The notes under the pieces were generated by a model, which searched no databases, was not told the DNA's origin, and saw nothing but the letters and a program-made list of their open reading frames with translations. Positions 7,297 to 47,858 of a stretch of DNA of 47,858 nt are shown here, piece by piece. The stretch is taken from IMG/VR virus record IMGVR_UViG_3300025508_000031, positions 1 through 47,858 of that record; one strand, given 5' to 3'. This stretch comes from a virus. Every line of letters starts with the position of its first letter. Position 1 is the first letter of the stretch. The translations under genes were made by a program, and so were the position numbers.

Positions 7297-7333
7297 CCTC
7301 CTAAGAGTGTAGCAGTACAAGGAGTATCTAGAC

Positions 7334-7588: not shown

Positions 7589-7610
7589 CAAGTAACGTAC
7601 CACCTAATGA

Positions 7611-7645
7611 ACCCCCTTGGCCCTAAGAAGCCTTGGGGGTTTTTC
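7611..7645 (+). terminator. Intrinsic terminator between the converging arms
   Basis: CCCCC (7612-7616) pairs with GGGGG (7635-7639), then two T-T mismatches, then GGC/GCC; a run of five T follows at 7640-7644. It ends + strand transcription just before the late operon, which runs the other way and stops at 7658. Confidence 0.85.
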
Positions 7646-7657
7646 TTTGTTTAAAGG

Positions 7658-10600
7658 TTACTTGTTAATACCAGCTAGGTAATCCATAGTATCTCTGGAT
7701 TCGATCAGCCCCTTGATACCAGCTAGCTGTACAGTTGTGGCATCTCCGATATCTTCAAGACCCATCTCAGCTACAGCCCACTCTAAGTCAGCAGCAGGAT
7801 ACTTCTTATGCAGTGAGAACCGGATAGACATATCGTTGTTTGGATCACGGGAACCCTCTACGTATAGCATAGTCTCTGCATACTTCTTAGCATTTGCAAC
7901 AATATTATCCACCATGATACGCTTATACCGCTCAGGCTTATTAGCGAAGTCGTTCTCTTCCCACTCGTAAGTTGCCTTATCGTTAATATAGCTAAAGAAG
8001 ATGTTGTGGTAACGGTTAGCGGCTTCTGGAGCCTTATTGGCAATAGACACAGCGATATTAAGGGTAAACGGTTCAATGCCTACGTTGTTCAACAAACGCT
8101 CTGTATTGGTTAGGTTGAGAGTCCTAGCACCGATGAGAGCAGTAGGCTGTACATCTACAGCACCTTGAGCCGAAGAGTACTTCTGAACAGGCTCTTTACC
8201 TGTAAGTAGAAGTGAAATCTGGTCAAAGTTACGGAGAGCTGTGTTAGCTACGTGCCCAAGACCTTGCCGACGGTCTGGTGTGATATAGGTGTCCCTGTTC
8301 ATTACACCTACGGCAGTATTGACAGCACCAATAGGACGAGTTGCAGCAGCTACAACCTGTGCACCTACGGAACCCATGACGCCTTTAGTCTCAGCCCAAG
8401 CAGCTGCTGTGTCACCAGAGATTAGAGCCTCTGCTACAGCTACAATATCGTTCTGAGTAGTAGTCAAGTTCTTAGTTAGACCACCCAAGCCAAACTGCTT
8501 TTCAAACTGAGCAGTAATCTCTTTAGGAACCTCTTTACCTTCCATGTGATAGGAAGCGATACGAGCAGCATACTTGAAGAAAGAAGCTGGGTAATCGAAC
8601 TTAACGTCAACTACTTCGCCTGTATTATCGATGTCTTGTCCGATACCCAAACCAAGACCTCGTAGGTACGTCTCACGGTCAGCCATTGTGTAGATCAGTG
8701 TAGTCCCCACAAGAGCCTTAGAGAAGACCTCCTTGAAGCTACGGTCCTCGTACTTCCCCATAGCCTTCATAACAAGACCAAGCGGTGTAGCAGCAGTAGA
8801 GAAAGACACAGTGTTGTTAAAGAAGCGACCGAATGGAACCATCAAACCGATACCTGGAATCTTACGTGCATCCTCGATAACAGCTGCTACTTCCCCAATG
8901 GCGTCCTTACCTTTGAATGACTTAGAGAAGATACCTTCCATAGTGCGGTTTACTGCACCAGCTTCTAGTTCACGGTACTCCTTTGTACGCATTACCTGAG
9001 ATAGAGCTGGGTTCTTAGTAGAGTCAAAGAACTCGTTGTAACCACCCTTGAATCGGAGGGTACTCCCATCTTCCAGCTTAACGCCAGTAGTACGCAAAGC
9101 TTTATCAATCTGGTACATAAACTCCTGAGACTTTGTTAAGGCATCCTGCCCTTGCACAAAGGTAGCCCGCTGTAGGCCATCGACAACAGAATCAACACGA
9201 GACCCCACCATCAACTCCTTAGGGGAGAGTTTACCACTGAACAAGTCCTTAGTAGTCTGTTCAACACCACCGGACGTGATGTCATTGAGGTCACCTAGGA
9301 ACTGGCTGCGTACACGCATGTAGTCCTCGAAAGCTTCTCCTGTAGCCCTGTTATCAAGCAGGAGGCGCATACGGTTACCTACTGACTTCAGCATACCAAA
9401 GCCTACGTCAAGGTCAGCCTTCGCCCCTTGGGAGCCTACAACAGCCTTCATCGTACCGTGCCCAACGTGGAGCAAGGCCTGTGACAAATCAGACACAGTG
9501 TTAAAGGCTGCACCACCTGCCCAACCAGATACGTTGAGAGCAGAAGTAGACGGGTGTGCCACAAGAAGTCGTACAACACGTCCTTGGTAATCAGACACTA
9601 GCTTACCTACTTTACCTACTGACCCAGCCGAGGACCAACCAGCATCGAGTGCCTTATCGACGAAGGTAGCTACGTCCAGCTTAGAGATGTCTATTTGGTT
9701 TGTGATCTGAGCAGCACGTCCAATAGCACCCAAGGATGAGCCAGACTCACTCGACTTACGAGCGAATAGGTTACCGAAGTCCTCAGGGGAGATACCATCG
9801 AGCTCCTTAAAGTTCATCTTAAAGTTCTGCTTAAGTACAGACACCAAGTCAGATACTTCCTCAGGGGAGGCATCCTTGATAATGTCAGCCATCCAATCAG
9901 AGTAGAGATCATCCCTATTCTTCTTAACGTGCACAAGGCCACGTTCATTTGTTATCTGAGCAAGGCCCTTAAAGTAGACCTCACCTGTATCAGCGTTGGC
10001 ACGACCCAAGAGTAAGTCTTGGAAGAACTCAGTGTCAGGAGCCCTTACATCTTTACCAGCTGAAACCTTCTGAGCCCATGTACCTGACTTAGGCACAGTC
10101 TCATCTGAGTAGGCTTTAAGGGAGTCTGTAAGCTCTGTAATCAAGTTCTTAGTAGTAGGGATTTCCACCTCGAGGGATGGCATCTTGACACCAGAAGCTC
10201 CCTTTGTTAGTACACGTGCAGCTTGTACACCACCTAGAACGGCACCCCCTACAAAGGCTAGGCCAACGGCTAGCTCATCGACATCGTCTCGAACACCTAG
10301 CTCAATCAAGTTACCTTGGTATAGTGTCTCCATACCTGCGTTAACGATACCATCGATAGCTGTAGTACCTGCAATGTCTTTCAGAGCAGAAGTCTGAGCT
10401 AGACGGGCAATACCATTCTTAGATGCCAGTGCCTTAGCTGCAGCACGGTTAGTGGCAGTCATAGCCGCAGACTCCGAACCCTCTCGGATAATACGGGACA
10501 TGACAGTGTTACCAGCACTACGTGCAGCCTTTGTAGCTACCTCTTGAGTAGCGCCCTTACCTAGCTGAGCTGCAAGAACTTTACCGAACTCCTTGATGCC

Positions 10601-11470
10601 CTGCCGCTTGACTGCTTCAGTAGCAATACGACCACCAGCTCCAGTAGCCAGCTTACCCCACCCGAGGGTTACAAGGTTAATTGGGTCAAGGATAACACCT
10701 TGTGTGTAGTCAACGACTGCCTGACCAAGGTTAGACCAAGAAGAGCTCTTAGAGAAGGAGCCCTCTGCATTGTCGAAGATGCTATAAGCTTCAGCTGTGT
10801 TACGGACTCGATCAGCATCACCTTCAAGACTCTTGATATAGGAGAAATCAGCTAGTCCACGTACAGTGTTACCAGACGACGTTGAGCGACGTTCCTGTAC
10901 AAAGGCATCAATCACTTCTTCTTGTGAATGCTCCTTAACCCAAGACGAACCCCTCCGGTCAGACATGTGAGCCAGAATAGGTTTAATAAGCTTATCATCT
11001 GTATAGAAGTCGTCTACAGTATAGGTCTGAGCTTCTACACCTTCTGGCAAGAAGTTCCAAGTAGTTGCATTCTTTTCATTAGACTCCACTTGTTCAGTTG
11101 AGAGGGGATTACCCTCCCGATCAAAGCGTGGCTTAAAGGTATCAATACTATCTAAACCAGTTACAGGTTCAATAGCAGTCGGGGGAAGATCAACAGGAAT
11201 AGCTTCCTCAGTCTGTGTGTCTACATCACTTACTAATGGGTTACCCTCTCGATCAAAGCGTGGTTTAAAGACACCTGGTTCTGTAACAACAGGTTCCTCT
11301 TGTACAGGTGCAGGTTCTTCAGACACAGGAGTAGGCTCAGGGGCTGCAGGAGCCGCCTGAGGTACTGGTGTAGACTTGAGGGTATCTCCAAGTCGATTGA
11401 TAGGACGACCTAACTCATCCTTCTCTTCAGCTACATTTACAGGTTTAAAGGTATCAGATAGACCAGCCAT
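7658..11470 (-). CDS. Very large virion protein, probable internal/ejection protein
   Basis: 1270 residues, the last gene of the late operon. The first 120 residues are Pro/Glu-rich and carry near-identical copies of FKPRFDREGNP, suggesting a flexible repeated tail. The remainder is mostly helical and Ala-rich with glycine-rich hydrophobic stretches (AVGLAFVGGAVLGGV; VLLVAHPSTSALNVSGWAGGAAF), as in podoviral ejection proteins of the gp15/gp16 type. No catalytic lysozyme motif was found in it; the lytic domain is in the gene at 14535. Size and position at the 3' end of the structural operon support the call, but sequence identity was not recognised, so the exact role is inference. Confidence 0.62.
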   Translation of the reverse strand: MAGLSDTFKPVNVAEEKDELGRPINRLGDTLKSTPVPQAAPAAPEPTPVSEEPAPVQEEPVVTEPGVFKPRFDREGNPLVSDVDTQTEEAIPVDLPPTAIEPVTGLDSIDTFKPRFDREGNPLSTEQVESNEKNATTWNFLPEGVEAQTYTVDDFYTDDKLIKPILAHMSDRRGSSWVKEHSQEEVIDAFVQERRSTSSGNTVRGLADFSYIKSLEGDADRVRNTAEAYSIFDNAEGSFSKSSSWSNLGQAVVDYTQGVILDPINLVTLGWGKLATGAGGRIATEAVKRQGIKEFGKVLAAQLGKGATQEVATKAARSAGNTVMSRIIREGSESAAMTATNRAAAKALASKNGIARLAQTSALKDIAGTTAIDGIVNAGMETLYQGNLIELGVRDDVDELAVGLAFVGGAVLGGVQAARVLTKGASGVKMPSLEVEIPTTKNLITELTDSLKAYSDETVPKSGTWAQKVSAGKDVRAPDTEFFQDLLLGRANADTGEVYFKGLAQITNERGLVHVKKNRDDLYSDWMADIIKDASPEEVSDLVSVLKQNFKMNFKELDGISPEDFGNLFARKSSESGSSLGAIGRAAQITNQIDISKLDVATFVDKALDAGWSSAGSVGKVGKLVSDYQGRVVRLLVAHPSTSALNVSGWAGGAAFNTVSDLSQALLHVGHGTMKAVVGSQGAKADLDVGFGMLKSVGNRMRLLLDNRATGEAFEDYMRVRSQFLGDLNDITSGGVEQTTKDLFSGKLSPKELMVGSRVDSVVDGLQRATFVQGQDALTKSQEFMYQIDKALRTTGVKLEDGSTLRFKGGYNEFFDSTKNPALSQVMRTKEYRELEAGAVNRTMEGIFSKSFKGKDAIGEVAAVIEDARKIPGIGLMVPFGRFFNNTVSFSTAATPLGLVMKAMGKYEDRSFKEVFSKALVGTTLIYTMADRETYLRGLGLGIGQDIDNTGEVVDVKFDYPASFFKYAARIASYHMEGKEVPKEITAQFEKQFGLGGLTKNLTTTQNDIVAVAEALISGDTAAAWAETKGVMGSVGAQVVAAATRPIGAVNTAVGVMNRDTYITPDRRQGLGHVANTALRNFDQISLLLTGKEPVQKYSSAQGAVDVQPTALIGARTLNLTNTERLLNNVGIEPFTLNIAVSIANKAPEAANRYHNIFFSYINDKATYEWEENDFANKPERYKRIMVDNIVANAKKYAETMLYVEGSRDPNNDMSIRFSLHKKYPAADLEWAVAEMGLEDIGDATTVQLAGIKGLIESRDTMDYLAGINK

Positions 11471-11496
11471 GTGTTACTCCTACAGGTTTCTTATTG

Positions 11497-13953
11497 TTAT
11501 TGATTCATAGCTAATACAAGGGCTTCTTGAACCTTCTCATCACCAAACTTCTCTTGCATTTCAATGATTAGAGCGTCGAGTTCAGCTTGATCCATACCGT
11601 TCCCAGAGAGACCCTTGACTATAGCTTCAATACCGACAGCTAGCTCTTCTTCGGGTGCTAGTGGTTTACCCTTAGCCTCTACGTATGGTGCTACTACGGC
11701 GTCTAGCGCAGACCGTACCTTAGGTGAGTTTAGTTCAGTTGCACCCATCTGTGTAGGACGGTAACCATCAGGCATCGACTTAGACTCTGTAGAGAGTTGA
11801 TCAGACTCCATTCCAACCCGATCTAGACGTGACTGTTCCATTCGTCCTAGGTTTGTATCCCCAGCCGTTACTTGAAGTTCAGCCTCGACTATCTTCCGTG
11901 TCTCTGGGCTAAGCGCTTCGAGAATCTTAGGTAAGTTCAACTCAGTTGCACCCATTTGTGTAGGGGTGTAACCATCGGGCATCGACTTAGACTCTGTAGA
12001 GAGCCTATCAGATTCAGCTCCTACTCGTCCTAGTCGGGACTGCTCCATCCGCTCTAGGTTTGTATCAGAAGCATTCTCAGGAGACCCTTGTACACCCGAT
12101 TCAGATGGACGCACCCCTGTGTCTTGGAAGCCTACAGTGCCGATACGTTGACGACTGTCAGTAACAGGAATAATCTGTTGTATCCCACTTACCAGGGAAT
12201 TAATAGCTTCCTTAACTGCAGCACCCTCTGGTGTTGAGCCCGTGTTAATCTCCTCACGAGTAGGAGGTTTCTTTAATTCAGAACCGTAGGCAGCTGCCAT
12301 ACGCTCTTCGTCACCTGTGTCACGGGTTAGACTCTCAGAGTAAATGTCGGCTATCTTCTGAGAAGCTTCTGCAGCAGAGATACCATTGTTCCAGAGATTA
12401 CCTGCTACCTCATCAAGCTCACCTGCAGATTCAAACCAATCAGTTCCGTCTAGACCTATTGTCTCATTTACAAAACCAAGGCCTACACCCATCCAACTAC
12501 CTACTTCAAGAGCAGAGCCTAGCGCCATACCAGCTCCTCGATCAGCACCTTTAAGCATATACTCTCCAGTCTTATTCCAAACGGTCTTAACAGTATCTGC
12601 TACTTTCTGAGCACCTTCCTGACCAAACGCTTCACCGTACTGTTCTCGGATGGCGACAGCACTGGCTTCAGGGAATACACCAAAGTCTTCTACAGATACT
12701 GGGGCACCCGTCTCGATACCGTATGAACCGCCCTCTGCCTTACCTGTGGCAAAACCTTCACTAGGTGTAAAGCCAGAACCGTACGTAATACGAGCTACAC
12801 CTTCTTTACCAAAGACTTCTAGTGCTTGAGCCATAACCTCTGGATCATCTGGATTCTCTAAGAGAGCCTCCTTACGACGTTGTTCCTCAGCAGACTGTGC
12901 TGGACCTGAGCCTACAGGTGCGGCACCCGGGATTGTAGCCCCATCAGCTGGTACGAGACTAGGGCTCTGTGTAACGTAGCCACGGAACATAGGATTATCC
13001 TTATACGCCCTAAACTCAGTAGGATACAGCTCTGCAAGTTCAGACAAGACCTGCTGTCCATGTGTACGCTTACGGCGCTCCATAATAACGTCCCGAGCCG
13101 CTCCATCGGGGGCGCTATAGTACTCACTTAACTCAGTCTCACCCATAGTAGACAGAATACCTTGTTCAAAGGCAGTTTTCTGATTCTTAAACAACTCAGG
13201 ACGCTGCTTATTTATGTCTACAAAGTTAGTCAGGTTAGCATCGATTGTAGCTGAGTTTAGATTTATAGCCTTCAGGTCAGTAAGCAATTCAAGAGATTTG
13301 CTGTAACCCTCTGGGGTAGTCATATCCAAGTTATTGATAGTAGCAAGGTACTCAGCTGCTTTCTTCTTGTTCTCTGCATAGCCAGGGACCTGAGTCACAC
13401 GGATAGTCTCTCGAATTTGGGATGCTGTTGGCATAGTGCCAGTAGTACCCTCAATCTTCTTAATAAGAGACCAGAACTCGTGTGCATCTGCAGGGTCCGT
13501 AAGAGTTTCACTAACAGAGGTAATGTAGTCTACATCTTCTTGAGAGGTAGTATCGTCTGACAAGCTGGTCTCAAGCCAGCCGTTTAACTTAAGAACGCTA
13601 TCCTCTAGTGTTTTTGGAGCAGGAATAGGACCTTCACCACTACCACCGGTAGCAGGGGGAGTTACACCACTGCCAGCCGCCAAACGGGCTGCAGTCCGTA
13701 CAGCTGCATTCTGCTCAGCTTGTGTTCGGTCGTAAGTTCCTTGAGTACGGAGTTCTGCGGAGGCAGTATACTCATCAAGCTTAGCTTGCCGCTTCAGGTT
13801 AATCTCATCCATCCGACGACGATATTCAGTCTCTTCATTCCGGTACGCACGATCCTCGTCGCGAACAGACTTACGCTCCTCAGCCAGAGCTTCCTGTTGG
13901 TCACGCACTTCAATATCCTTGGTAGCCTGTACTACTCCAGCCCAAAATGACAT
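11497..13953 (-). CDS. Large virion-associated protein with coiled-coil N-terminus and internal repeat
   Basis: 818 residues. The N-terminus (about 12-70) is strongly charged and helical (EERKSVRDEDRAYRNEETEYRRRMDEINLKRQAKLDEY), a likely coiled coil. A glycine-rich hydrophobic patch at about 475-495 (GAGMALGSALEVGSWMGVGLGF) could insert in a membrane. Near the C-terminus a block of about 45 residues (NLxRMEQSRL to PTQMGATELN) occurs twice, about 70 residues apart. It sits between the two other candidate internal virion proteins and the 1270-residue protein. An ejection or core protein is the best guess. The start is at the ATG overlapping the stop of the upstream gene. Confidence 0.55.
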   Translation of the reverse strand: MSFWAGVVQATKDIEVRDQQEALAEERKSVRDEDRAYRNEETEYRRRMDEINLKRQAKLDEYTASAELRTQGTYDRTQAEQNAAVRTAARLAAGSGVTPPATGGSGEGPIPAPKTLEDSVLKLNGWLETSLSDDTTSQEDVDYITSVSETLTDPADAHEFWSLIKKIEGTTGTMPTASQIRETIRVTQVPGYAENKKKAAEYLATINNLDMTTPEGYSKSLELLTDLKAINLNSATIDANLTNFVDINKQRPELFKNQKTAFEQGILSTMGETELSEYYSAPDGAARDVIMERRKRTHGQQVLSELAELYPTEFRAYKDNPMFRGYVTQSPSLVPADGATIPGAAPVGSGPAQSAEEQRRKEALLENPDDPEVMAQALEVFGKEGVARITYGSGFTPSEGFATGKAEGGSYGIETGAPVSVEDFGVFPEASAVAIREQYGEAFGQEGAQKVADTVKTVWNKTGEYMLKGADRGAGMALGSALEVGSWMGVGLGFVNETIGLDGTDWFESAGELDEVAGNLWNNGISAAEASQKIADIYSESLTRDTGDEERMAAAYGSELKKPPTREEINTGSTPEGAAVKEAINSLVSGIQQIIPVTDSRQRIGTVGFQDTGVRPSESGVQGSPENASDTNLERMEQSRLGRVGAESDRLSTESKSMPDGYTPTQMGATELNLPKILEALSPETRKIVEAELQVTAGDTNLGRMEQSRLDRVGMESDQLSTESKSMPDGYRPTQMGATELNSPKVRSALDAVVAPYVEAKGKPLAPEEELAVGIEAIVKGLSGNGMDQAELDALIIEMQEKFGDEKVQEALVLAMNQ
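11725..12066 (-). repeat. Intragenic repeat in the 818-residue virion protein gene
   Basis: Two copies of roughly 135 bp, at about 11725-11859 and 11933-12066, encode near-identical peptides with the shared core STESKSMPDGY and PTQMGATELN. DNA identity is high but not perfect, consistent with an old in-frame duplication. Confidence 0.8.
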
Positions 13954-14519
13954 TATACTACACCCTCATTCTTAGACGGACGTGACATCAGACCACCGGT
14001 AGGTGCTGCTGGCTCTTCGCTCATCATAGCTTCATTATCCATCATACCTTCAACAGGCATCATCTCTTCTTGTTCGTCTGTTGTATCTGTCTCACCCGAA
14101 AGGAAGTCAGTAGTCTCACCAGTCTTCTCTTCGTACTCATCAAGAAGCTTACGAGCCTTCTTGCTATTGATGGCATACTTAACCCTACGCTTCTCTTTAC
14201 TCTCGTCAGGGAAACCCTCTTCGTACTCAATACCAGCTTGGTCAGCACTGCTCTTAATGAACTCATGGATGATTGGTGCAATGATAAGAGAGACATCAAC
14301 ACTGTGACGACCATCCATAACAGCACCACGAAGGATACCACTCGTTAGCGTGACGACGTCCATGCCTAACTCCATAGCGTCTAGGAGGTCCTCTGTCTTA
14401 TCAGCTAGTCGATCAAGGTGCCAGAATACAGCATCCTCAGGCTTAGTCATCTGAGGAGGGTTCTCGTAGGGTGCGTTCTTAGGTTCTGCAGTCAAAGACT
14501 GTCCTGGGATAATAGCCAT
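13953..14519 (-). CDS. Conserved-looking virion-region protein of unknown function
   Basis: 188 residues, not recognised. A soluble helical N-terminal half contains FWHLDRLADKTEDLLDAMELGMDVVTLTSGILRGAVMDGRHSVDVS. A highly charged segment follows (ESKEKRRVKYAINSKKARKLLDEYEEKTGE), then an acidic, Met-rich tail (MMPVEGMMDNEAMMSEE), probably disordered. No signal peptide or membrane helix is obvious. Its place between the lytic virion protein and the 818-residue protein suggests an internal virion or core-assembly role. Confidence 0.6.
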   Translation of the reverse strand: MAIIPGQSLTAEPKNAPYENPPQMTKPEDAVFWHLDRLADKTEDLLDAMELGMDVVTLTSGILRGAVMDGRHSVDVSLIIAPIIHEFIKSSADQAGIEYEEGFPDESKEKRRVKYAINSKKARKLLDEYEEKTGETTDFLSGETDTTDEQEEMMPVEGMMDNEAMMSEEPAAPTGGLMSRPSKNEGVV

Positions 14520-39863: not shown

Positions 39864-39909
39864 GAGCTTGGTCTCTTATGATTAGGAGTAAGCTTGATGG
39901 ACCCCTCCA

Positions 39910-39938
39910 GTTATAACATAGGGGTCTGTGTAAGTCAA
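39910..39938 (-). promoter_or_regulatory. Leftward sigma70-like promoter of the late operon
   Basis: On the - strand TTGACT (39938-39933), 17 bp, TATAAC (39915-39910). The start point, about 39903, lies 40 bases before the first late gene. Confidence 0.7.
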
Positions 39939-40056
39939 GCTAAAAGGAGGGGAGGGTCCCCAAAAAGTTACCTTCTTGGAGAAGGGTATGACATAGAGGG
40001 ATGACAACCGAGAGGTTAGATGGAACTCTAAGCCGCGAGGTCAACCCTCAAGCGGT

Positions 40057-40145
40057 ACTTTAAGTGTACTATAAGTATTACTTTAAGTACTTATCATCTA
40101 TTGTTATTATTAATAGGTATTACATACTTATAGTATACTTTAAGT
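40057..40145. repeat. ACTTTAAGT repeats (three copies) in the AT-rich leader
   Basis: Copies at 40057, 40080 and 40137. The unit is nearly palindromic (ACTT-T-AAGT). The third is embedded in AGTATACTTTAAGT, which recurs exactly at 46016-46029. Candidate operator for a phage regulator. Confidence 0.7.
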
Positions 40146-40213
40146 TACACTCTAAGTAGTTAATATCTAATAATCAATAATAGATTATAACCTCTACTCT
40201 CTACTCTAAGTAT

Positions 40214-40242
40214 ATTATACCATAAGTGCTAAAAGATGTCAA
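40214..40242 (-). promoter_or_regulatory. Consensus leftward sigma70 promoter of the late arm
   Basis: On the - strand a perfect TTGACA (40242-40237), a 17-bp spacer and a perfect TATAAT (40219-40214). The ACTTTAAGT repeats lie 70-160 bases downstream of it, where a bound protein could block elongation. Confidence 0.85.
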
Positions 40243-40425
40243 CCCCTAATCGTATGTCACCCCCTGTCTACCCCTCAGATATCCTGAGAGTGTGTCATTG
40301 TTGCACCACTTATTACACCTAGTATACTAGCAGGACCAGAACATAGGCCAGAATACCCTCGGTATAACCTAAAGTGGTTAACAGAACGGTATTTACCCCC
40401 CGCTGTCATCCTGGGTGTATATGTA

Positions 40426-40458
40426 CCCCTGGACCCCCCGTGGCCCCTCTACCCCCCC
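40426..40458 (-). other. G-quadruplex motif
   Basis: On the - strand four G-runs (7, 4, 6 and 4 G; + strand C-runs at 40452-40458, 40444-40447, 40434-40439 and 40426-40429) are separated by three loops of exactly 4 nt. A fifth run of six lies at 40396-40401. It sits right after a possible leftward promoter at 40469. Confidence 0.8.
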
Positions 40459-40468
40459 TCGATGCTAT

Positions 40469-40496
40469 AGTATAACATATCGTTACAATAGGTCAA
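40469..40496 (-). promoter_or_regulatory. Possible leftward promoter just before the G4 motif
   Basis: TTGACC (40496-40491), 16 bp, TATACT (40474-40469) on the - strand. Spacing is one short and the -35 box is imperfect, so it is weaker than the others. A transcript from it would start at about 40462 and open with the G-rich motif. Confidence 0.45.
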
Positions 40497-40899
40497 CCTT
40501 GCTGACATACAATAGGTAAGGACTGCTGACATACCCCTAATGTAACAACCATTAACAATGTAACGGGGTATTACATACGGTTTTCGTAGGGTAACTCGCG
40601 GTAAGGTTGTTTTTGTATACCCCTAGACAACCTATACGATACCCCTCAACTGCTAGTTGCACGACCCCTAACGCCACTCGCCTTAAACGATACAACTCGC
40701 CTTCTAGTTGCAATACCCATACCCATACAACCTGAATGCGACTGGGAAGAACGGAACGAGAACATGCAATAGGAACATAACGTAAACACGACGTAGACCC
40801 CGATTTTAGCCCCATACAGCGCAACCTTGCTATTTCCCTTACCTTGACCCACTAAAACCTATGTTCTTGCTCTGTTCACGTTCTCAGAGCTTTGCATAA

Positions 40900-40951
40900 A
40901 CGCGCATACGCGCATACGCGTAGTAATACTATACGCGCATCATGCACGCGT
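40900..40951. repeat. ACGCGCAT / ACGCGT iteron-like cluster
   Basis: ACGCGCAT at 40900, 40908 and 40933, and ACGCGT at 40916 and 40946, with an inverted arrangement CGCGTA ... TACGCG around 40917-40937. Five related units fall within 52 bases. Confidence 0.75.
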
Positions 40952-40983
40952 AATCTAATCACATATTAGAAGGCTTATCTGGG

Positions 40984-41060
40984 TTTATCGTTTGTTTTCA
41001 ATAGGTTAGCCAATTGTTACAGTTCGATCACGACTTTTATCGTTTGTTTTCAATAGGTTA
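40984..41060. repeat. Perfect 25-bp direct repeat containing CAATAGG
   Basis: Identical copies at 40984-41008 and 41036-41060, 52 bp apart. Each ends with TTTTCAATAGGTTA. Candidate origin iterons or binding sites or promoters for a phage-encoded polymerase. Confidence 0.85.
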
Positions 41061-41116
41061 TAAGAAAGTTTATTTAATCTCAAATTAGTTGTTGTTTATC
41101 TCGGTCACTCAATCTA

Positions 41117-41450
41117 GATTTAACTTATCGGCAAGACGGACAGACAATCCAGCCAGCCGAAGCGGGGAAGGGAACCCCTAGGAACAAAGTTAAATCCCTC
41201 GACCCTTAGGGTCACGTGAAGCCGATACCCCGATAGGACGGGTAAGCAGCGTGGTTCTGGTTTAGGGCGGTTATCCATCGAGTAATTCGGTAGCAACTAT
41301 GGTTCGCTACTTAACGAGTGAAGGAGGTGGATAGGTTCCCGATTGCAAGTATCGGACTCGCGTATTTCTCCTTTAAGTAGGGTTTGGTCACGAGGTAGAA
41401 AAAGCGAAAGGGAATCCATTTTATATAAGAGCGCATCCGTTGTGGGTGCG
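41117..41450 (+). ncRNA. Candidate multi-stem structured RNA upstream of the right + strand arm
   Basis: Several long-range and local pairings are nested in a GC-richer, ORF-free stretch. GATTTAACTT (41117-41126) pairs with AAGTTAAATC (41187-41196), enclosing GGGG/CCCC (41164, 41175). Next is GACCC/GGGTC (41201, 41209). TATCCATC (41272-41279) pairs with GGTGGATA (41326-41333), enclosing GTAGC/GCTAC (41290, 41306). CCGAT/ATCGG (41339, 41351) and CGCATCC/GGGTGCG (41432, 41444) follow. TATCGGC (41126) can alternatively pair with GCCGATA (41221). No known riboswitch or ribozyme class was recognised. It could be a free ncRNA or the leader of the gene at 41480. Confidence 0.6.
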
Positions 41451-41479
41451 TTGCTAGTGAAATGGAAAAGGAAAACCCC

Positions 41480-41974
41480 ATGACAAATACAGCAATCGTA
41501 AACGACATCAAAGTAATCGAGAACAACTTCGTAACTGCAATGGGTAGCGGTGTTGCTGCTACTGCCCACTTGATTGCTCTCATTCAATCAGTAGTGAAGT
41601 CAGAGCAAGGCGGTGTCCTTGCTAGTGCCATTGCCCGATTGAATAAGAAGGGCGATGCGCATGGCTCACGTGCTGTCCGCTCTATTACTGCTGCCATCTT
41701 TGTTGGTGCCAAGATTGGGACTGCCAAAGACAAGAAAACCCTCCTTGTATCCCTCAAGGATGCTACCGTTGACGTCGAGGCCCTTGGTCGCTTGGTTGCC
41801 GCTGGTGGTGAGAAGCTCTCCATTCGTGATGCATTGGTAAAGCGTGTGAAGGGTGAGACTGAAGTGAAGGAGTTGGACTTGGTCAAGTATGCCGAAGGTC
41901 TTGTGAAGCGCATGGAGAAAGAGGGTGTTACATCCGCTGCCCTTATTGCTGCCATCCAAGCCGCTGCCAAGTAA
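41480..41974 (+). CDS. Helical, Ala-rich early protein (164 residues)
   Basis: Starts at the ATG behind AAAAGGAAAA; the ATG at 41462 has no ribosome site. MTNTAIVNDIKVIENNFVTAMGSGVAATAHLIALIQSVV ... KKGDAHGSRAVRSITAAIFVGAKIGTAKDKKTLLVSLKDATVDVEALGRLVAAGGEKLSIRDALVKRVKGETEVKELDLVKYAEGLVKRMEKEGVTSAALIAAIQAAAK. Almost entirely helical with Lys-rich segments. No family was recognised. As the first gene of the right + strand arm, next to the putative origin, it could be a DNA-binding or host-takeover protein. Confidence 0.75.
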   Translation: MTNTAIVNDIKVIENNFVTAMGSGVAATAHLIALIQSVVKSEQGGVLASAIARLNKKGDAHGSRAVRSITAAIFVGAKIGTAKDKKTLLVSLKDATVDVEALGRLVAAGGEKLSIRDALVKRVKGETEVKELDLVKYAEGLVKRMEKEGVTSAALIAAIQAAAK

Positions 41975-41987
41975 TTGCTTTCTAATG

Positions 41988-42008
41988 GGTGCCGCTATCG
42001 GTGGCACC
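41988..42008 (+). terminator. Possible weak terminator after the first early gene
   Basis: GGTGCC (41988-41993) pairs with GGCACC (42003-42008) and is followed by TTATT, a poor T-run. May reduce transcription of the microprotein genes downstream. Confidence 0.4.
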
Positions 42009-42062
42009 TTATTGAGTGCAATCGAGTGCTTACATGAAACACGTAGGAAAGGTGTGACTACT

Positions 42063-42191
42063 ATGACACAAGTAATTTTGAACGGACAGAGCGTGGGTGC
42101 AATCACTCGTGAGAACCTCTCCACATTCCTTCGTGTCTCCACTATGGTGGTGGTGTCACATACGCCAACAACAATCTGCTTGGAAGGGTAA
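42063..42191 (+). CDS. Microprotein with MTQVILNGQ N-terminus (42 residues)
   Basis: MTQVILNGQSVGAITRENLSTFLRVSTMVVVSHTPTTICLEG, behind AGGAAAGGTG. The start is supported by the paralogous microprotein at 42799 (MSQVILNGQ). The same frame is open upstream to an ATG at 41985, but that start lies in a hairpin and lacks a ribosome site. Function unknown. Confidence 0.6.
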   Translation: MTQVILNGQSVGAITRENLSTFLRVSTMVVVSHTPTTICLEG

Positions 42192-42195
42192 TACC

Positions 42196-42273
42196 ATGGG
42201 TGCTGCCCTCCTACTTATCATATCAACGGCCGTGATGGCCTATCTCATATACAAGGACGAAAGCAATGGGTGA
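42196..42273 (+). CDS. Single-helix membrane microprotein (25 residues)
   Basis: MGAALLLIISTAVMAYLIYKDESNG: one membrane helix with a short charged tail. It has AAGGG upstream. The end of its frame contains the ribosome site and start of the next gene (AAGGACGAAAGCAATGG), giving the KDESNG tail. Confidence 0.5.
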   Translation: MGAALLLIISTAVMAYLIYKDESNG

Positions 42274-42667
42274 AGTATATCTTGAAAAGGTGGTGTTTGC
42301 CATCGATGACAATTGGAATGTCCATACCGTCGCCAAGTTCTTGCGACACGTGGACACCTTGCGTGCCATGGGAAAGATCAAGCCTGTGGTGCAATGCATC
42401 GGGAACTGGGAAGGCGTTCTGGAGGTCTCTTACATGATGGACCTCAAGGAATTCGACAAGCATGTAGTCCCATACGGCTTTGTGGAGGGGCAGGAGGCCG
42501 TCCTAGTGGTGGCAGGTGATACACGCCAACCTTGCCATATCCGCTTCCCTACCGGTCACACAGTGAGCGTGGGGCCTATGGTGGAAATTGACGGGCCTAT
42601 AGGTAACTGGACGTATGTTCCAGCCACAAACAAATACTTCACATGTAAGGACGAAAGCAATGGTTAA
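42266..42667 (+). CDS. Early protein of unknown function (133 residues)
   Basis: MGEVYLEKVVFAIDDNWNVHTVAKFLRHVDTLRAMGKIKPVVQCIGNWEGVLEVSYMMDLKEFDKHVVPYGFVEGQEAVLVVAGDTRQPCHIRFPTGHTVSVGPMVEIDGPIGNWTYVPATNKYFTCKDESNG. Soluble alpha/beta protein, not recognised. The start is supported by AAGGACGAAAGC. Its last six residues equal those of the preceding microprotein because both genes end over the same 17-bp linker. Confidence 0.75.
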   Translation: MGEVYLEKVVFAIDDNWNVHTVAKFLRHVDTLRAMGKIKPVVQCIGNWEGVLEVSYMMDLKEFDKHVVPYGFVEGQEAVLVVAGDTRQPCHIRFPTGHTVSVGPMVEIDGPIGNWTYVPATNKYFTCKDESNG

Positions 42668-42788
42668 GAAACTATCTCTCACGATCATCGCCGCGTGCTA
42701 CCTAGTGAACACGGTCGCCATTTATGGGGCCGAAGGTGGTGGCTCTAACGTTTGTGCAGGTAACTTCTGCTATCATATTGAGGATTAA
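42660..42788 (+). CDS. Secreted Cys-containing microprotein (42 residues)
   Basis: MVKKLSLTIIAACYLVNTVAIYGAEGGGSNVCAGNFCYHIED, read from the ATG at the end of the repeated AAGGACGAAAGC linker. A signal-peptide-like start (KK, then a hydrophobic core to about 21) is followed by a short tail with two Cys (CAGNFC). It would be periplasmic or lipid-anchored-like; no lipobox is clear. Overlaps the previous gene by 8 bp. Confidence 0.6.
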   Translation: MVKKLSLTIIAACYLVNTVAIYGAEGGGSNVCAGNFCYHIED

Positions 42789-42798
42789 GGCAAGGACT

Positions 42799-42876
42799 AT
42801 GTCACAAGTAATCTTGAATGGACAACGTGTTAAACTTATGGTGGTGGTAACGATCACCAAACATCTAAAGGATTAA
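42799..42876 (+). CDS. Microprotein paralogous to the one at 42063 (25 residues)
   Basis: MSQVILNGQRVKLMVVVTITKHLKD, behind AAGGCAAGGAC. The first nine residues match MTQVILNGQ of the gene at 42063, and MVVV also recurs, with the middle removed. Probably a shortened duplicate; the function is unknown. Confidence 0.5.
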   Translation: MSQVILNGQRVKLMVVVTITKHLKD

Positions 42877-42880
42877 GAAC

Positions 42881-42970
42881 ATGATGGACTACCTAGAAGA
42901 ACTAGCCGACACACCCACCTTGTCCGAGGACATGGATGATATTGAAACAATCTTGATGGAGGAACTCTGA
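42881..42970 (+). CDS. Acidic microprotein (29 residues)
   Basis: MMDYLEELADTPTLSEDMDDIETILMEEL, behind AAAGGATTAAGAAC. Eleven of 29 residues are Asp or Glu and there is no Lys or Arg, the composition of phage DNA mimics and host-enzyme inhibitors, though such a role is only a guess. It ends one base before the next start. Confidence 0.55.
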   Translation: MMDYLEELADTPTLSEDMDDIETILMEEL

Positions 42971-42971
42971 T

Positions 42972-43193
42972 ATGTCATATATTTCTGGATGGTTTGAAGG
43001 GGAGTGCGGTGCAGTCTTGTTTGAATACGAGGGTATCACTGACTTTGAGGCCCTCGCCTTTCGTCTATACCTAGACTTTGGTGACGATTGTTGGGGTGTA
43101 GATATGGAGATTGAAGGGGAGTATCTAGACGGGACAGACGTTGAGACTACTATGACAGAGCTACGCAGCGACTTGGAGTTCCTGTGTAGTTAA
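42972..43193 (+). CDS. Small acidic early protein (73 residues)
   Basis: MSYISGWFEGECGAVLFEYEGITDFEALAFRLYLDFGDDCWGVDMEIEGEYLDGTDVETTMTELRSDLEFLCS. Strongly acidic, with aromatic residues and three Cys. Not recognised. Preceded by GGAGGAACTCTGAT and immediately downstream of the acidic microprotein. Confidence 0.68.
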   Translation: MSYISGWFEGECGAVLFEYEGITDFEALAFRLYLDFGDDCWGVDMEIEGEYLDGTDVETTMTELRSDLEFLCS

Positions 43194-43231
43194 TGGAAAC
43201 CAAGACACTAACTTAGGAAAGGGTTAGTCTG

Positions 43232-44737
43232 ATGGAAAACGTTAGAGAACCAATCAAGGTGGGTGACTACCTGCAAGTGAAGCGCGGCTCAGTTACTGCG
43301 CACTGGTGTGAAGTCGTGGCTATATCACAGTGTGGTAGGCACATCGTGTATACGGGCCAAGGCCTCTTGGATACGCACCTATTCTTTGAGCCAAGGCTGC
43401 GTGAGTATGCATCAGCTGGTGATGTATACGACATGGCTGGCTCAGTCTTTGATAGAAGTGGGATCAAGCCGTCCAAGTATGGCACAATTGATGAGGTGGC
43501 CGCTGTCCTGTTGCAAACAGCTATGACATCCTCTCACTCTCAGCCTTGGCGTCCTTTCGTCTCCTTCTTGGAAGGTAACTATTCAGGTGCTGGTATCCAG
43601 TATGATGGTCTATGTGAGGCCGATCGTGCCCTAGCTATATTCAAGCCAGAAAAGGTGGAGGGTAGCTCAGCTATCAGTCTCTACCTTAACGCCAAGGACG
43701 CTAAGCGTGAGCGCCGTACAACAATGAAAGGTGGTCGTGCGTTCAAGCACATGTTCAACCACCTGTCCGATAAGGAGATTGCCGCTTTAGCTGAGGCATG
43801 GATCGAGGAGAGTTCACCTCGTGAGTTCGTTCTCAAGGTAGGTGGTGAGCGTAAAGACTTTCGCAGGGCATACTGTGGTGTTCGTGCTAAGTATCGCAAC
43901 CCAGCAACAACTAGCTACCGTAAGTCTCTTGCTACCTCATGTATGCATACCACCAAAGTAGATGATGGTTGTGAGAACATGTCACCAGCTGAGGTGTATG
44001 CATCAGGTGACTTCAAGGTTGCTTGGCTAGAGACGCTGGAAGGCCACATAGCGGCCCGTGTTGTGTTCTCAGCTAGGGTAGACACCCAGTCGTACCATGC
44101 ACCCATCTACGGAGCCTGTGAGCAATCCTTAGACATGCTTGACACCTACTTGCAGGATAACAAGGTAGAACTGTCCTCTGACTTAGGTGAGTGGCATAGC
44201 CTCAAGCTTCTGAACATAGAGTCGAATGGTCGCACCGTTGGCCCATACATGGATGGATGCATCAGGGGTAACGTTAGCGGTGACCATATCGTTCTGTCAC
44301 ACAGTGGAGACCTTGACTTTGACTCCACTGATGGTTACGCTAGTGATGGTGAGATGTGTGCTCACTGCGGTGATAGTGTTCATGAGGATGAGCTATACCA
44401 TACTGACGATGGTGGCCTTTGCGAGCACTGCTTCAATGAGAACTTCGCTTACACTGAGGGTGGTGACGTTATCCCAGCTGAGAATGCTGTCTATGCTCTG
44501 AATCGTAGCTCATGGAATGGTAACTGCTACGAGATCTGCGTTCACATTGATGATGCTGTATTCTGTGAAGACCTTGACCAGTATTGGGTTGAAGAAGATG
44601 TTACTTACTCTGAGTGTGGTGACTATGCTATCCCTACCCACCTCATGAAGGACTACCCTGCGTATTTCCCTAGTGAGTTCGGGGAAGATGATGATGAAAC
44701 AACTAACAACAACAACATAGAGGAGGAAGCAGCATGA
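43232..44737 (+). CDS. Large early protein with zinc ribbon (501 residues)
   Basis: The largest early gene here, with no recognised family. The N-terminus is a small beta domain (IKVGDYLQVKRGSVTAHWCEVVAISQCGRHIVYTG). The middle is alpha/beta and Lys/Arg-rich (NAKDAKRERRTTMKGGRAFKHMFNHLSDKEIAALAEAWIEES). Residues 376-400 form a CxxC-17-CxxC zinc ribbon (CAHCGDSVHEDELYHTDDGGLCEHC). More Cys follow at about 432-462 (CYEIC, FCEDL, SECGDY), and the tail is Asp/Glu/Asn-rich. The start has AGGAAAGGG upstream. A regulatory or nucleic-acid-binding role fits but is not shown. Confidence 0.75.
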   Translation: MENVREPIKVGDYLQVKRGSVTAHWCEVVAISQCGRHIVYTGQGLLDTHLFFEPRLREYASAGDVYDMAGSVFDRSGIKPSKYGTIDEVAAVLLQTAMTSSHSQPWRPFVSFLEGNYSGAGIQYDGLCEADRALAIFKPEKVEGSSAISLYLNAKDAKRERRTTMKGGRAFKHMFNHLSDKEIAALAEAWIEESSPREFVLKVGGERKDFRRAYCGVRAKYRNPATTSYRKSLATSCMHTTKVDDGCENMSPAEVYASGDFKVAWLETLEGHIAARVVFSARVDTQSYHAPIYGACEQSLDMLDTYLQDNKVELSSDLGEWHSLKLLNIESNGRTVGPYMDGCIRGNVSGDHIVLSHSGDLDFDSTDGYASDGEMCAHCGDSVHEDELYHTDDGGLCEHCFNENFAYTEGGDVIPAENAVYALNRSSWNGNCYEICVHIDDAVFCEDLDQYWVEEDVTYSECGDYAIPTHLMKDYPAYFPSEFGEDDDETTNNNNIEEEAA

Positions 44738-45699
44738 GTAACGTAACAAGACACACGCTGATAAACCTACTGCAAACCATGCGTCCAGCCTACTCGCTGA
44801 CTGAACGTAGGTTCTGTGAGACTTACCTTGAACCTACATTCGGTAAGCCTGACGCACATGGTAACTATATCTTGAGTGTAGGCAACAACCCAACGATTGC
44901 CTTCACTGCCCATACCGACACTGTCCACCGCACTGAGGGTGTTCAGACCCTATCCGTGGAGAACAACTTTGTTACTTCTATGACGGGTAGTTGCTTGGGT
45001 GCTGATTGTACTACAGGCCTTTGGTTACTCTTAGGAATGATCGAAGCGGGTATCGAAGGTGTCTACATTGCCCATGCCGCCGAGGAAATCGGTGGGGTCG
45101 GTAGCTCCAAACTGGTAGAGGACAACCCTGCTTGGCTCTCTAATATCCAAGTATGCTTGTCTTTCGATAGGTTCGGCACCAACAGTGTCATCACCCACCA
45201 AGGTGGTAGGCGGACAGCTAGTGACGACTTTGCGGAATCCCTCGCGGATATCCTTGGGATGCCACAGCTTAAACCCGACACGACAGGGACCTACACAGAC
45301 AGCATGGAGTATGCTGGTATCGTGCCTGAGTGTAGCAATCTCAGTGTCGGATACTACGATCAGCACACGTCTAAGGAGTCACAGGACATACTCTACGCTG
45401 AAACACTGCTTGAGAGGCTCTGTAAGGCCGACTGGAGCGCCTTGGTGGTTTCTCGTGACCATACCCAGCCTATAACGTATGACGACGCTCTACGGTCCTC
45501 TTATCAAGATGCCTCTGATGAGGTGAATGAGGAGGACATAGACGCCATTACAGCTCTACTCCTTGACAGGCCACGCCTGATAGCCGAGCTTCTATATGAT
45601 TACGGCTTGACTATCGACGTGCTGGCTGACGAGCTAAAGCTTGACTACTCAGATATGAGATATTATACTGATGAACACTCAGCTAAGTCTTATTATTAA
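44734..45699 (+). CDS. M20/M28-like zinc aminopeptidase or deacylase
   Basis: 321 residues. Motifs of the co-catalytic metallopeptidases are in order: AFTAHTDTVHR (His60, Asp62), CLGADCTTGLW (Asp91, where the family usually has GADD or GADN), IAHAAEEIGGVG (Glu117-Glu118), SFDRFGT (Asp145), and ECSNLSVGYYDQHTSKE near 225. These supply the two-metal site and the general base. It is cytoplasmic, with no signal peptide. It overlaps the 501-residue gene by 4 bp (ATGA). Whether it cuts peptides or removes acyl groups is not decidable here. The C-terminal 60 residues are an extra helical region. Confidence 0.82.
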   Translation: MSNVTRHTLINLLQTMRPAYSLTERRFCETYLEPTFGKPDAHGNYILSVGNNPTIAFTAHTDTVHRTEGVQTLSVENNFVTSMTGSCLGADCTTGLWLLLGMIEAGIEGVYIAHAAEEIGGVGSSKLVEDNPAWLSNIQVCLSFDRFGTNSVITHQGGRRTASDDFAESLADILGMPQLKPDTTGTYTDSMEYAGIVPECSNLSVGYYDQHTSKESQDILYAETLLERLCKADWSALVVSRDHTQPITYDDALRSSYQDASDEVNEEDIDAITALLLDRPRLIAELLYDYGLTIDVLADELKLDYSDMRYYTDEHSAKSYY

Positions 45700-45718
45700 T
45701 CCTTGGAAAGGAAACACT

Positions 45719-45922
45719 ATGTCTTTCACATACATCTTCGAAATCAAAGTAAACAAGAATGTGGTCGAGTCCTTGACGACTAATGACATGAGCGAGGGCC
45801 AAGAGTGGGCCTCAGCTAACACACTCGTAGGGGACTTGGTCGTCGTCTCAGAAGCCTATGAAGGCTTGGATGGCCAACTAGAGGTGACAGAACATGTGAC
45901 CTCCTACTATGTAGACCTATAA
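45719..45922 (+). CDS. Small early protein (67 residues)
   Basis: MSFTYIFEIKVNKNVVESLTTNDMSEGQEWASANTLVGDLVVVSEAYEGLDGQLEVTEHVTSYYVDL, from the ATG behind AAAGGAAAC; an upstream in-frame extension lacks a ribosome site. A compact alpha/beta protein, acidic, not recognised. It closes the operon before the promoter at 45932. Confidence 0.7.
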   Translation: MSFTYIFEIKVNKNVVESLTTNDMSEGQEWASANTLVGDLVVVSEAYEGLDGQLEVTEHVTSYYVDL

Positions 45923-45931
45923 AGATTTAGC

Positions 45932-45961
45932 TTGACAAGGTGCCTAACTGTTTGTTATACT
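45932..45961 (+). promoter_or_regulatory. Sigma70-like promoter of the far-right early genes
   Basis: TTGACA (45932-45937), 18 bp, TATACT (45956-45961), in the same CTTGACAAG context as those at 2058 and 7267. A short palindrome (TGCC-GTAG-GGCA flanked by TATA) lies over the start region. Confidence 0.85.
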
Positions 45962-46009
45962 TGCCGTAGGGCATATAAGAGAATGACTATAAATTAGAAG
46001 ATTGGTTAT

Positions 46010-46029
46010 ACTTTAAGTATACTTTAAGT
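46010..46029. repeat. Two ACTTTAAGT units one helical turn apart
   Basis: Copies at 46010-46018 and 46021-46029, spaced 11 bp start to start, so a bound protein would lie on one face of the DNA. They sit about 40-60 bases downstream of the start of the promoter at 45932. The same 14-bp core is found in the AT-rich leader at 40132. Confidence 0.75.
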
Positions 46030-46074
46030 AACACTTAGAGTTAGCCAACCTCCTACTCAGAAGGAGTAACTACT

Positions 46075-46299
46075 ATGAGACATTCACCAGTATCATTCCA
46101 CGAGGAGCTTGAGGAGATTATGGATCAGATGTCCGACGATGATATGTCGGTAGGTGATAAGCTTGATGTAGCAATCTCCTTAGCTGGTCTCCTCCTACTT
46201 CGAATAGATGACCTTCAAGGCTTCGCAGTAAGCAAGGGTCTAACTGACAAGGACTTCCAAAGATACATTGAGGGTATTTCGAATGTCACATACCATTGA
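46075..46299 (+). CDS. Small acidic early protein (74 residues)
   Basis: MRHSPVSFHEELEEIMDQMSDDDMSVGDKLDVAISLAGLLLLRIDDLQGFAVSKGLTDKDFQRYIEGISNVTYH. Helical, with an acidic first half and an amphipathic middle. AGAAGGAG lies 10 bases upstream. First gene after the promoter at 45932. Not recognised. Confidence 0.72.
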   Translation: MRHSPVSFHEELEEIMDQMSDDDMSVGDKLDVAISLAGLLLLRIDDLQGFAVSKGLTDKDFQRYIEGISNVTYH

Positions 46300-46384
46300 C
46301 ACCGTCGATGATCCCTGCGATGATATCAGTGAGAACATTGACAAGTGGATCAGAACCCTAACACCAAAGACAGAGGAGACCTAA
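46283..46384 (+). CDS. Acidic microprotein (33 residues)
   Basis: MSHTIDTVDDPCDDISENIDKWIRTLTPKTEET, overlapping the previous gene by 17 bp with GAGGG upstream. Tight placement before the next start (3 bp) supports it. Function unknown. Confidence 0.45.
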   Translation: MSHTIDTVDDPCDDISENIDKWIRTLTPKTEET

Positions 46385-46387
46385 CAG

Positions 46388-46567
46388 ATGTTTATAACAC
46401 TTGACACAGCTCTACCAGTCATCACGTTACTTATCGTAGCATATCAGTCATATAAGCTGTATGAGCTAGACAAGGACATGGATGACCTAGTAGACAAGCA
46501 CAACGACTTCGTGGAGAGTGTAGCCACTGTCTTCGACGCCATCATTGAACAAACACCAGAGGAATAA
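46388..46567 (+). CDS. Small single-pass membrane protein (59 residues)
   Basis: MFITLDTALPVITLLIVAYQSYKLYELDKDMDDLVDKHNDFVESVATVFDAIIEQTPEE: one membrane helix (about 7-22) then a charged helical, probably coiled-coil, cytoplasmic tail. The layout recalls i-spanins and immunity or exclusion proteins, without sequence support for either. It is 4 bp upstream of the collagen-like gene, so the two may act together in the envelope. Confidence 0.62.
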   Translation: MFITLDTALPVITLLIVAYQSYKLYELDKDMDDLVDKHNDFVESVATVFDAIIEQTPEE

Positions 46568-46571
46568 CACC

Positions 46572-47204
46572 ATGAAAACCATCATCACAACAACCGCAAT
46601 CATCCTGCTAATGACTACAGCAGCAACAGCAAGCCCTAAGACTTGCCCAGTTAAGACAAACACAAGCGGCGTACAGATCATCAAGAATGGCTGCGCTGCC
46701 TTTGTAGGTGGCACAGGCGCTACAGGCCCTCAGGGGCCCCAAGGAGAGCAAGGTCCACAAGGTGAGCAAGGGGTATCAGGTAATGACGGACAAGACGGCG
46801 CACAGGGCCTTACAGGGGCTAATGGAACAAACGGAACGGATGGAACAGATGGACAAGACGGGACCAACGGTACTAACGGTGTTGATGGTATTAATGGCAC
46901 AGATGGGGCTAATGGCTCTGACGGTTCTGCTGGTCGTGACGGTGTAGATGGTGCTGACGGAGACAAGGGAGACACTGGTAAGGATGCTGTAGCACCACTA
47001 GGCTCACTATCCTTTGCAGCAGCTAGTGCAACCTTATACGGGGATGGTATCGGCTTTGGTCTATCTAACTCTAACTACGGTAGCCTTGAAGGTTCTATCG
47101 TGGTAGGCTTCGACCTTGATAACGACTGGCGCTTGGTGGGTGGTATCACTACAGACTTCAACGGTAAGACTGCGGTATCTGTCGGCCTCGGCTACAACTT
47201 CTAA
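46572..47204 (+). CDS. Secreted collagen-like protein with YadA-like outer-membrane anchor
   Basis: 210 residues from the ATG at 46572. A signal peptide (1-20, cleavage likely after ATASA or ATA) is followed by a short head with Cys25 and Cys41. About 30 unbroken Gly-X-Y triplets (46-138) form a collagen-like stalk. The last 70 residues are beta-rich (LSFAAASATLYGDGIGFGLSNSNYGSLEGSIVVGFDLDNDWRLVGGITTDFNGKTAVSVGLGYNF) and end in Phe. The anchor size, strand pattern and terminal aromatic match the four-strand membrane anchor of trimeric autotransporters. It would place a trimeric rod on the host cell surface. It is not in the structural operon, so a virion fibre is less likely. Confidence 0.75.
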   Translation: MKTIITTTAIILLMTTAATASPKTCPVKTNTSGVQIIKNGCAAFVGGTGATGPQGPQGEQGPQGEQGVSGNDGQDGAQGLTGANGTNGTDGTDGQDGTNGTNGVDGINGTDGANGSDGSAGRDGVDGADGDKGDTGKDAVAPLGSLSFAAASATLYGDGIGFGLSNSNYGSLEGSIVVGFDLDNDWRLVGGITTDFNGKTAVSVGLGYNF

Positions 47205-47216
47205 AGGAGAACTAAC

Positions 47217-47453
47217 ATGCTACTCAAGGTAGAAACAATCGAGAAGGTACAAGGCAGCTCAATCCAAGAATTCTGGACTGCACCTATGTATATCGTGAAC
47301 GGTGAGTTCTTGGCCTCGTCTATTGACCGCCATAACATTCAAGGTAAGCCCTTCGACTTAAAAGAAGGTGAGACGGTGGAGGTGCTTACCAAACCCGATA
47401 GTCAGTCCGACAGGTTCACATGGATAGCCCGCAAGTATACGCAAACGAAGTGA
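47217..47453 (+). CDS. Small early protein (78 residues)
   Basis: MLLKVETIEKVQGSSIQEFWTAPMYIVNGEFLASSIDRHNIQGKPFDLKEGETVEVLTKPDSQSDRFTWIARKYTQTK. Predicted mostly beta with the character of a small OB-like or SH3-like fold; not recognised. AAAGGAGAAC lies 7 bases upstream. Confidence 0.68.
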   Translation: MLLKVETIEKVQGSSIQEFWTAPMYIVNGEFLASSIDRHNIQGKPFDLKEGETVEVLTKPDSQSDRFTWIARKYTQTK

Positions 47454-47466
47454 TAGGAGAACTACT

Positions 47467-47664
47467 ATGACTAAGGAAACACAAGCACAGATCGACTCAC
47501 TACTCCGAATGATTGCACTGAACCAAGGACGAGTAGACAGCCTGATCGAAGAGCATGGTCATGGGTGTCGCCCCTCCTACGTTAGTGAGGAGCTATGTCA
47601 CTACGGGGAACGAGTGGAACGTTACAAGGCTGAGCTCAAAGAACTACAAGGGGAACCTAAATGA
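47467..47664 (+). CDS. Small helical protein (65 residues)
   Basis: MTKETQAQIDSLLRMIALNQGRVDSLIEEHGHGCRPSYVSEELCHYGERVERYKAELKELQGEPK. Two helices joined by a Gly/His/Cys segment, likely a helical hairpin. Not recognised. It overlaps thyX by 4 bp (ATGA), so the two are translationally coupled. Confidence 0.68.
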   Translation: MTKETQAQIDSLLRMIALNQGRVDSLIEEHGHGCRPSYVSEELCHYGERVERYKAELKELQGEPK

Positions 47665-47858
47665 CTAACCAGATAACAGCAACTTACATCGACCACTGCG
47701 GATCGGACCTATCAACTGTCAACGCAGCACGGGTTAGCTTCGGTAAGAGCAGCCATTTTGAAGGACGGGTAGGTGGCCCTAACGTACTGTCAGACAGAGA
47801 CACTAAGCTAATCAACTACCTAGCCAAGCACAAGCACCTATCACCCTTCGGGCATGCC
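47661..47858 (+). CDS. thyX: Flavin-dependent thymidylate synthase, N-terminal part
   Basis: ThyX makes dTMP from dUMP with FAD, NADPH and methylene-tetrahydrofolate. The first 66 residues are present and the rest lies past the window edge. Visible features are VNAARVSFGKSS (the AARVSxG region), a loop, then DTKLINYLAKHKHLSPFGHA, matching the family's DxxLIxYLxxHxHxSPFxH core. The RHRxxSxNExSxR motif is not yet reached. It pairs functionally with the ribonucleotide reductase at the other end of the window. Confidence 0.93.
   Translation, partial: MTNQITATYIDHCGSDLSTVNAARVSFGKSSHFEGRVGGPNVLSDRDTKLINYLAKHKHLSPFGHA

Follow-up and report, generated by a model that had tools for sequence, protein, structure and literature searches.

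Why should one seven-base word, CAATAGG, recur five times within 1.6 kb of non-coding DNA in a marine phage, just where its genes part in two directions, and what might read it? The window, by which we mean the whole 47,858-base virus record analysed here, comes from a marine podovirus of the HMO-2011/CRP-9 type; over the matched part, its terminase large subunit is 69-78% identical to those of CRP-13, CRP-9, CRP-2 and Puniceispirillum phage HMO-2011. HMO-2011-type phages have been counted among the ocean's most abundant viruses (PMC6918029). In the literature searched (PMC6918029, PMC9038755, PMC8528129) we saw no account of how they control transcription, and no mention of promoters, of the 24-bp element or of the RNA reported here. 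From the non-coding region (39864-41461), structural and lysis genes run leftward and early genes rightward; a distant blastn search with this control region against named phages gave no match. A contig with 100% identity to window positions 41312-47858 and 1-14491 (G001) joins the end of the window to its start, giving a circular map of about 57,586 bp. The 9.7 kb absent from the window encode ThyX, a Toprim/DnaB primase-helicase, a family A DNA polymerase (PolA) and RNR, together with a PD-(D/E)XK nuclease, endonuclease I, a MazG-like protein and a PAPS-reductase-like protein. The first rightward gene (41480-41974, plus strand) specifies 164 amino acids of unknown family. Farther along the plus strand, an early protein (42266-42667) matches the family of phage S-adenosylmethionine lyases, PF23780, though below threshold (E 1.2e-4), and may be the product of an anti-restriction gene; a ClpP-type head maturation protease-like gene (6610-7263) lies at the end of the rightward arm, distant from the head genes; and a tRNA-Arg (TCT) is found at 1883-1959, the same tRNA having been reported for roseophage CRP-9 (PMC8528129).

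The sequence-only reading from which we started placed CAATAGG at 40486, 40510, 40767, 40999 and 41051. All five positions are right, all lie on the plus strand, and its chance expectation of about 0.1 is borne out by 1000 dinucleotide shuffles of 39864-41461, in which the mean was 0.118 and none reached five; a 7-mer of any kind attained that number in only 2.4% of them. Its observation that the last two copies sit in identical 25-bp repeats, TTTATCGTTTGTTTTCAATAGGTTA, also holds: the repeat is perfect (40984-41008 and 41036-41060), and the longest exact repeat in the shuffles was 16. The cluster is restricted to the control region; elsewhere the motif stays at chance level, with six occurrences on both strands of the remaining 46 kb (expectation for the whole window, 5.45) and one in the 9.7 kb absent from the window. 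An equal frequency in coding regions throughout the genome, which the earlier reading had named as telling against itself, is not what these counts show. The five copies nevertheless make up three classes. The 25-bp repeat accounts for two of them and a tandem 24-bp repeat, TACAATAGGT(C/A)A...TGCTGACA (40484-40531, plus strand; CAATAGG at 40486 and 40510), for two more, while the last is a singleton with no repeat context (40767-40773, plus strand). A single family of five was rejected, a matrix of the element described below giving 7.3 bits at 40486 and no match at 40510 or 40767. By eye, the tandem repeat differs from that element in having three mismatches to the consensus of integration host factor (IHF), and its first copy overlaps a leftward sigma70-like match of 10/12 (40496-40469).

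Within the 25-bp repeats lies an element of 24 bp, which in the direction of the window reads TWATYSWWTRWWWTCAATRRSTTA. Copy A (TTATCGTTTGTTTTCAATAGGTTA, 40985-41008, in the plus-strand repeat 40984-41008) has an IHF-like core, TTTCAATAGGTTA, at 40996-41008, one mismatch from the IHF consensus WATCAANNNNTTR; copy B occupies 41037-41060 of the plus-strand repeat 41036-41060, with its core at 41048-41060. The copies are 52 bp apart (4.95 turns), and copy B ends 31 bp before the -35 hexamer of the putative rightward promoter. The surrounding segment, from a C-rich block to that promoter, is mostly hypervariable between clades. Relatives of about 67% nucleotide identity hold GCTAACCTATTGATTTTAAACGATAA at the same place, which is the reverse complement of the window repeat except for four central bases; the element is thus inverted in sister phages relative to the window, and its orientation varies among relatives. 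A matrix built from the first copies recovered more in the isolates CRP-2, CRP-603 and CRP-9 and in many contigs. Among matches above 13 bits in 0.998 Mb scanned, 37 of 44 fell inside this intergenic region, and none was found elsewhere in the window. When the matrix was rebuilt without the window's clade and its closest relatives, both window copies still ranked first at 25.4 bits, against best scores of 9.2-17.9 in locally shuffled windows. Relatives carry two to six copies, mostly two or three and almost confined to the control region, and close neighbours in the same direction are spaced by 52, 62, 63, 64, 40 or 41 bp (3.8-6.1 turns). In three contigs (L101, L102 and L103) the spacing is 86 bp (8.2 turns) and one copy abuts a -35 TTGACA (...GGGTTGACA). 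The six copies of L019 (105-453 of that contig) form two facing triplets with near-identical spacings (63/40 and 64/41 bp). No good copy of the element was found in CRP-13, HMO-2011 or L065. A sigma70 promoter inside the 25-bp repeat was also considered, and the consensus scan showed none there. The intergenic regions of L105 and L089 (the CRP-603 and CRP-13 control regions) contain repeated palindromes, TTTGTGATCACAAA.

The element stands between two promoters of apparently different strength. The leftward promoter, P_L (40214-40242, minus strand), reads TTGACA-17-TATAAT with TG before the -10 hexamer and matches sigma70 at 12 of 12 positions. A leftward match of 11-12/12 is present in most relatives' intergenic regions (among those examined, L034, L104 and L107 are the exceptions), and the hexamers appear to be under selection because the spacers differ among relatives. 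No rightward match of 11-12/12 was seen in the relatives' intergenic regions examined. The putative rightward promoter, P_R (41092-41120, plus strand; TTGTTT-17-TAGATT), looks weaker than the consensus P_L; sister phages have TTGACA-17-TAGATT or similar at its position. Just downstream of P_L is a conserved AT-rich segment (40057-40219) in which ACTTTAAGTA/ACTCTAAGTA words recur and which also contains an inverted repeat of 22 nt; it is a candidate unwinding or operator region. A second conserved block, AAAGTGGTTAACAGA...GGCCCCTCTACCCCC (40371-40457), is C-rich on the plus strand and G-rich on the minus strand, where several G runs could possibly form a G-quadruplex. The leader of the leftward transcript includes two terminator-like hairpins (39949-39985, minus strand) shortly before the first leftward gene.

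P_R would lead into an RNA of about 340 nt (41128-41465, plus strand), which ends before the first rightward gene and whose structure is supported by strong covariation. Over five distinct sequences, 70 pairs were tested and 99.4% of the pair cells hold; compensatory double changes occur in 21 pairs, no shuffle equals the pairing or double-change values, and conserved G-U pairs on the plus strand fit that strand as the RNA. Further members, found with a covariance model built on a 141-nt core, lie in L243, L244 and L246 (100-118 bits), ahead of genes homologous to the one at 41480. Covariance-model searches gave no homologue in the CRP-type isolates, L042 or L070. When folded singly, the CRP-9 and L042 leaders show only a slight gain in stability over shuffles. 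Assignment to a known family was tried and rejected, a search of Rfam even at E=5 giving one weak, unrelated match, and this RNA is possibly a new class.

What, then, reads the repeats at 40984 and 41036? With moderate confidence, and reasoning from sequence comparison, we favour a conserved protein-binding element whose protein would most likely be host IHF. The conserved half of the element, WWTCAANNNNTTA, matches the IHF consensus with at most one mismatch in 31 of 32 sites (15 exact, 16 with one), and the positions 5' of the core (1-11) are mostly A/T in the 32 sites, with preferences beyond A/T richness. The published consensus, which was not derived from the element, occurs exactly 20 times in the intergenic regions of these phages where 2.4 are expected. 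A precedent at an alphaproteobacterial phage-like promoter exists in Caulobacter, where the promoter of a phage-like gene transfer agent (GTA) is activated by IHF (PMC11150451). A search for HU/IHF genes (PF00216) found none in the phages searched and three matches in each of two Rhodobacteraceae genomes. Several features count against IHF. The window copies themselves are one-mismatch sites (TTTCAA), and conservation of the NNNN (mostly TRGG or TGAC) and of the distal 5' part exceeds what IHF needs. Phased arrays, here with as many as six copies, are not usual with IHF; they are typically the mark of initiators or dedicated regulators.

Hosts are expected to carry the element if one of their own proteins reads it. 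Searches with its 19-base form returned 20 matches against none for a reversed pattern in 101 genomes of the Ruegeria family (Rhodobacteraceae), a set in which the centre genome itself had been chosen for two of the 20, and 21 against one in 57 genomes of the Pseudomonas order (Pseudomonadales). The corresponding counts were four against one in 98 genomes of the Apilactobacillus order (Lactobacillales) and one against one in 61 genomes of the Arachidicoccus order (Chitinophagales); the reversed-pattern control handles composition, though not all intergenic bias. Chromosomal matches are non-coding in 64 of 81 cases, against 11% of random positions, and by eye some adjoin tRNA genes or a transposase gene. 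Exact matches to the 22-base form occur in at least 116 viral contigs, mostly in non-coding DNA, and 91% of 82 matches in viral contigs of 32-63% GC are non-coding, against 31% of random positions. These context counts depend on crude ORF calling and are weakened because AT-rich motifs fall in intergenic DNA anyway. Most viral contigs have one or two copies, and one has six. In five SAR116 contigs (L113, L152, L157, L158 and L187) the 24-bp element abuts the 3' end of tRNA-Met, as judged by eye. Since the element is present in proteobacterial chromosomes and in unrelated phages, a host protein is favoured; the distribution fits a proteobacterial host factor, for which IHF would be the obvious candidate.

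The sequence-only reading had suggested instead that the motifs are iterons for an initiator, or else promoters of a phage RNA polymerase whose gene lies beyond the window. As regards promoters of a phage single-subunit polymerase, the 25-bp length and AATAGG end do resemble T7-class promoters, both window copies point toward the rightward genes, and of 22 tandem contexts in other viral contigs, 15 have the element facing the gene that follows. However, no RNA polymerase was found in the window or in the bridging 9.7 kb, the element is inverted in sister phages, and CAATAGG is not found before other genes. CRP-13 lacks phrog_414 (RNA polymerase), as do 13 of 14 contigs that carry the element, the other one being positive; a PF00940 scan gave no match either, a result that counts little alone because its control also matched nowhere. 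A strictly gene-ward orientation, considered separately, was dropped, since 15 of 22 is not significant. Because the phage appears to lack such a polymerase, the element should not be its promoter, and this proposal, now extremely improbable, is largely refuted for the window phage. What holds of the earlier reading is the cluster itself, which occupies only the control region and is in part a repeated element of the protein-binding type; its assignment to phage RNA polymerase promoters does not stand. Even less probable is an origin of the whole cluster in chance or low-complexity similarity. Three other 7-mers reach five occurrences in this biased region (AATAGGT, ACCCCTA and TACCCCT), and for three of the five CAATAGG conservation gives no support, the comparison between phages backing only the class in the 25-bp repeat (40999 and 41051). 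The copy at 40767 is probably due to chance. For 40984-41060, chance is refuted by the perfect repeat and its conservation across clades.

More serious, though still unlikely, is the view that a regulator or replication initiator encoded by the phage has the 24-bp element as its operator or iteron, the phased copies and the AT-rich segment together forming an origin or early-gene switch. It is consistent with the multi-copy phased arrays, including the facing triplets of L019, with the conserved AT-rich repeats of 40057-40219, 0.8 kb from the two direct 25-bp copies, and with the cumulative GC-skew minimum of the genome at 40962, although this last sign is confounded because gene direction switches there. 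No initiator gene was recognised among the scanned proteins, but many small early proteins lack a family; that proteobacterial chromosomes and many other viral contigs, these mostly with one or two copies each, also have the element argues against it. It is very improbable that the element is what remains of a temperate ancestor's integrase arm or attachment site. Some HMO-2011-type phages encode an integrase, CRP-3 integrates at tRNA-Met (PMC6918029), and several chromosomal copies adjoin tRNA genes; yet the window phage has no recognised integrase, the integrase of the isolates sits upstream of the replication genes rather than at the control region, and the element forms multi-copy phased arrays at a divergent promoter region. 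Finally, and again rather doubtfully, the element could be recognised not by IHF in the ordinary way but by an undescribed protein, architectural or regulatory, that proteobacteria have in common with many of their phages; in the lineage of the window phage, its phased arrays would then control an early transcript opening with a new class of structured RNA (41128-41465).

Under the IHF reading, host IHF would bind WWTCAANNNNTTA and the AT-rich flank 5' of the core and bend the DNA sharply. Copies set near integral turns just upstream of P_R could then draw the region together into a compact complex of DNA and protein, which may set how active both host-sigma70 promoters are, leftward and rightward, and perhaps whether an origin opens; a contribution of the element to replication is possible. 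The phage would most likely rely on the host sigma70 polymerase for both arms, with IHF-bent DNA between them. The binder, the bending and the regulation of transcription or replication are all inferred in this proposal. The cis parts can now be named: a consensus sigma70 P_L, a P_R opening onto a covarying RNA, and IHF-like arrays between them. Dependence on a host DNA-bending protein becomes directly testable. Many marine phages keep the 24-bp element where two opposed gene blocks start, where it is probably a docking site for IHF.

How does this control region compare with known systems? In its structural module, with a terminase 69-74% identical, and in gene order, the window phage is like HMO-2011-type phages and the roseophages CRP-9 and CRP-13. 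With the T7-class promoters of Autographiviridae its element shares a similar length and the ...ATAGG end, but the phage has no polymerase gene, few genes are preceded by the element, and its orientation is not conserved. With the iterons of plasmid and phage origins it has in common repeat units of about 24 bp, near-helical spacing and AT-rich DNA nearby; unlike iterons, it comes in few copies and both orientations, no initiator gene was found with it, and chromosomes and unrelated phages carry it. From standard IHF sites it differs in the conservation of 24 bp, in a preferred NNNN and in its arrangement as two to six phased copies, which run in either direction. Yet with IHF sites such as that of the Caulobacter GTA promoter (PMC11150451) it shares an asymmetric core, a TT(A/G) end and an AT-rich 5' side, as well as a place upstream of the sigma70 promoters of phage-like genes and an occurrence in Proteobacteria.
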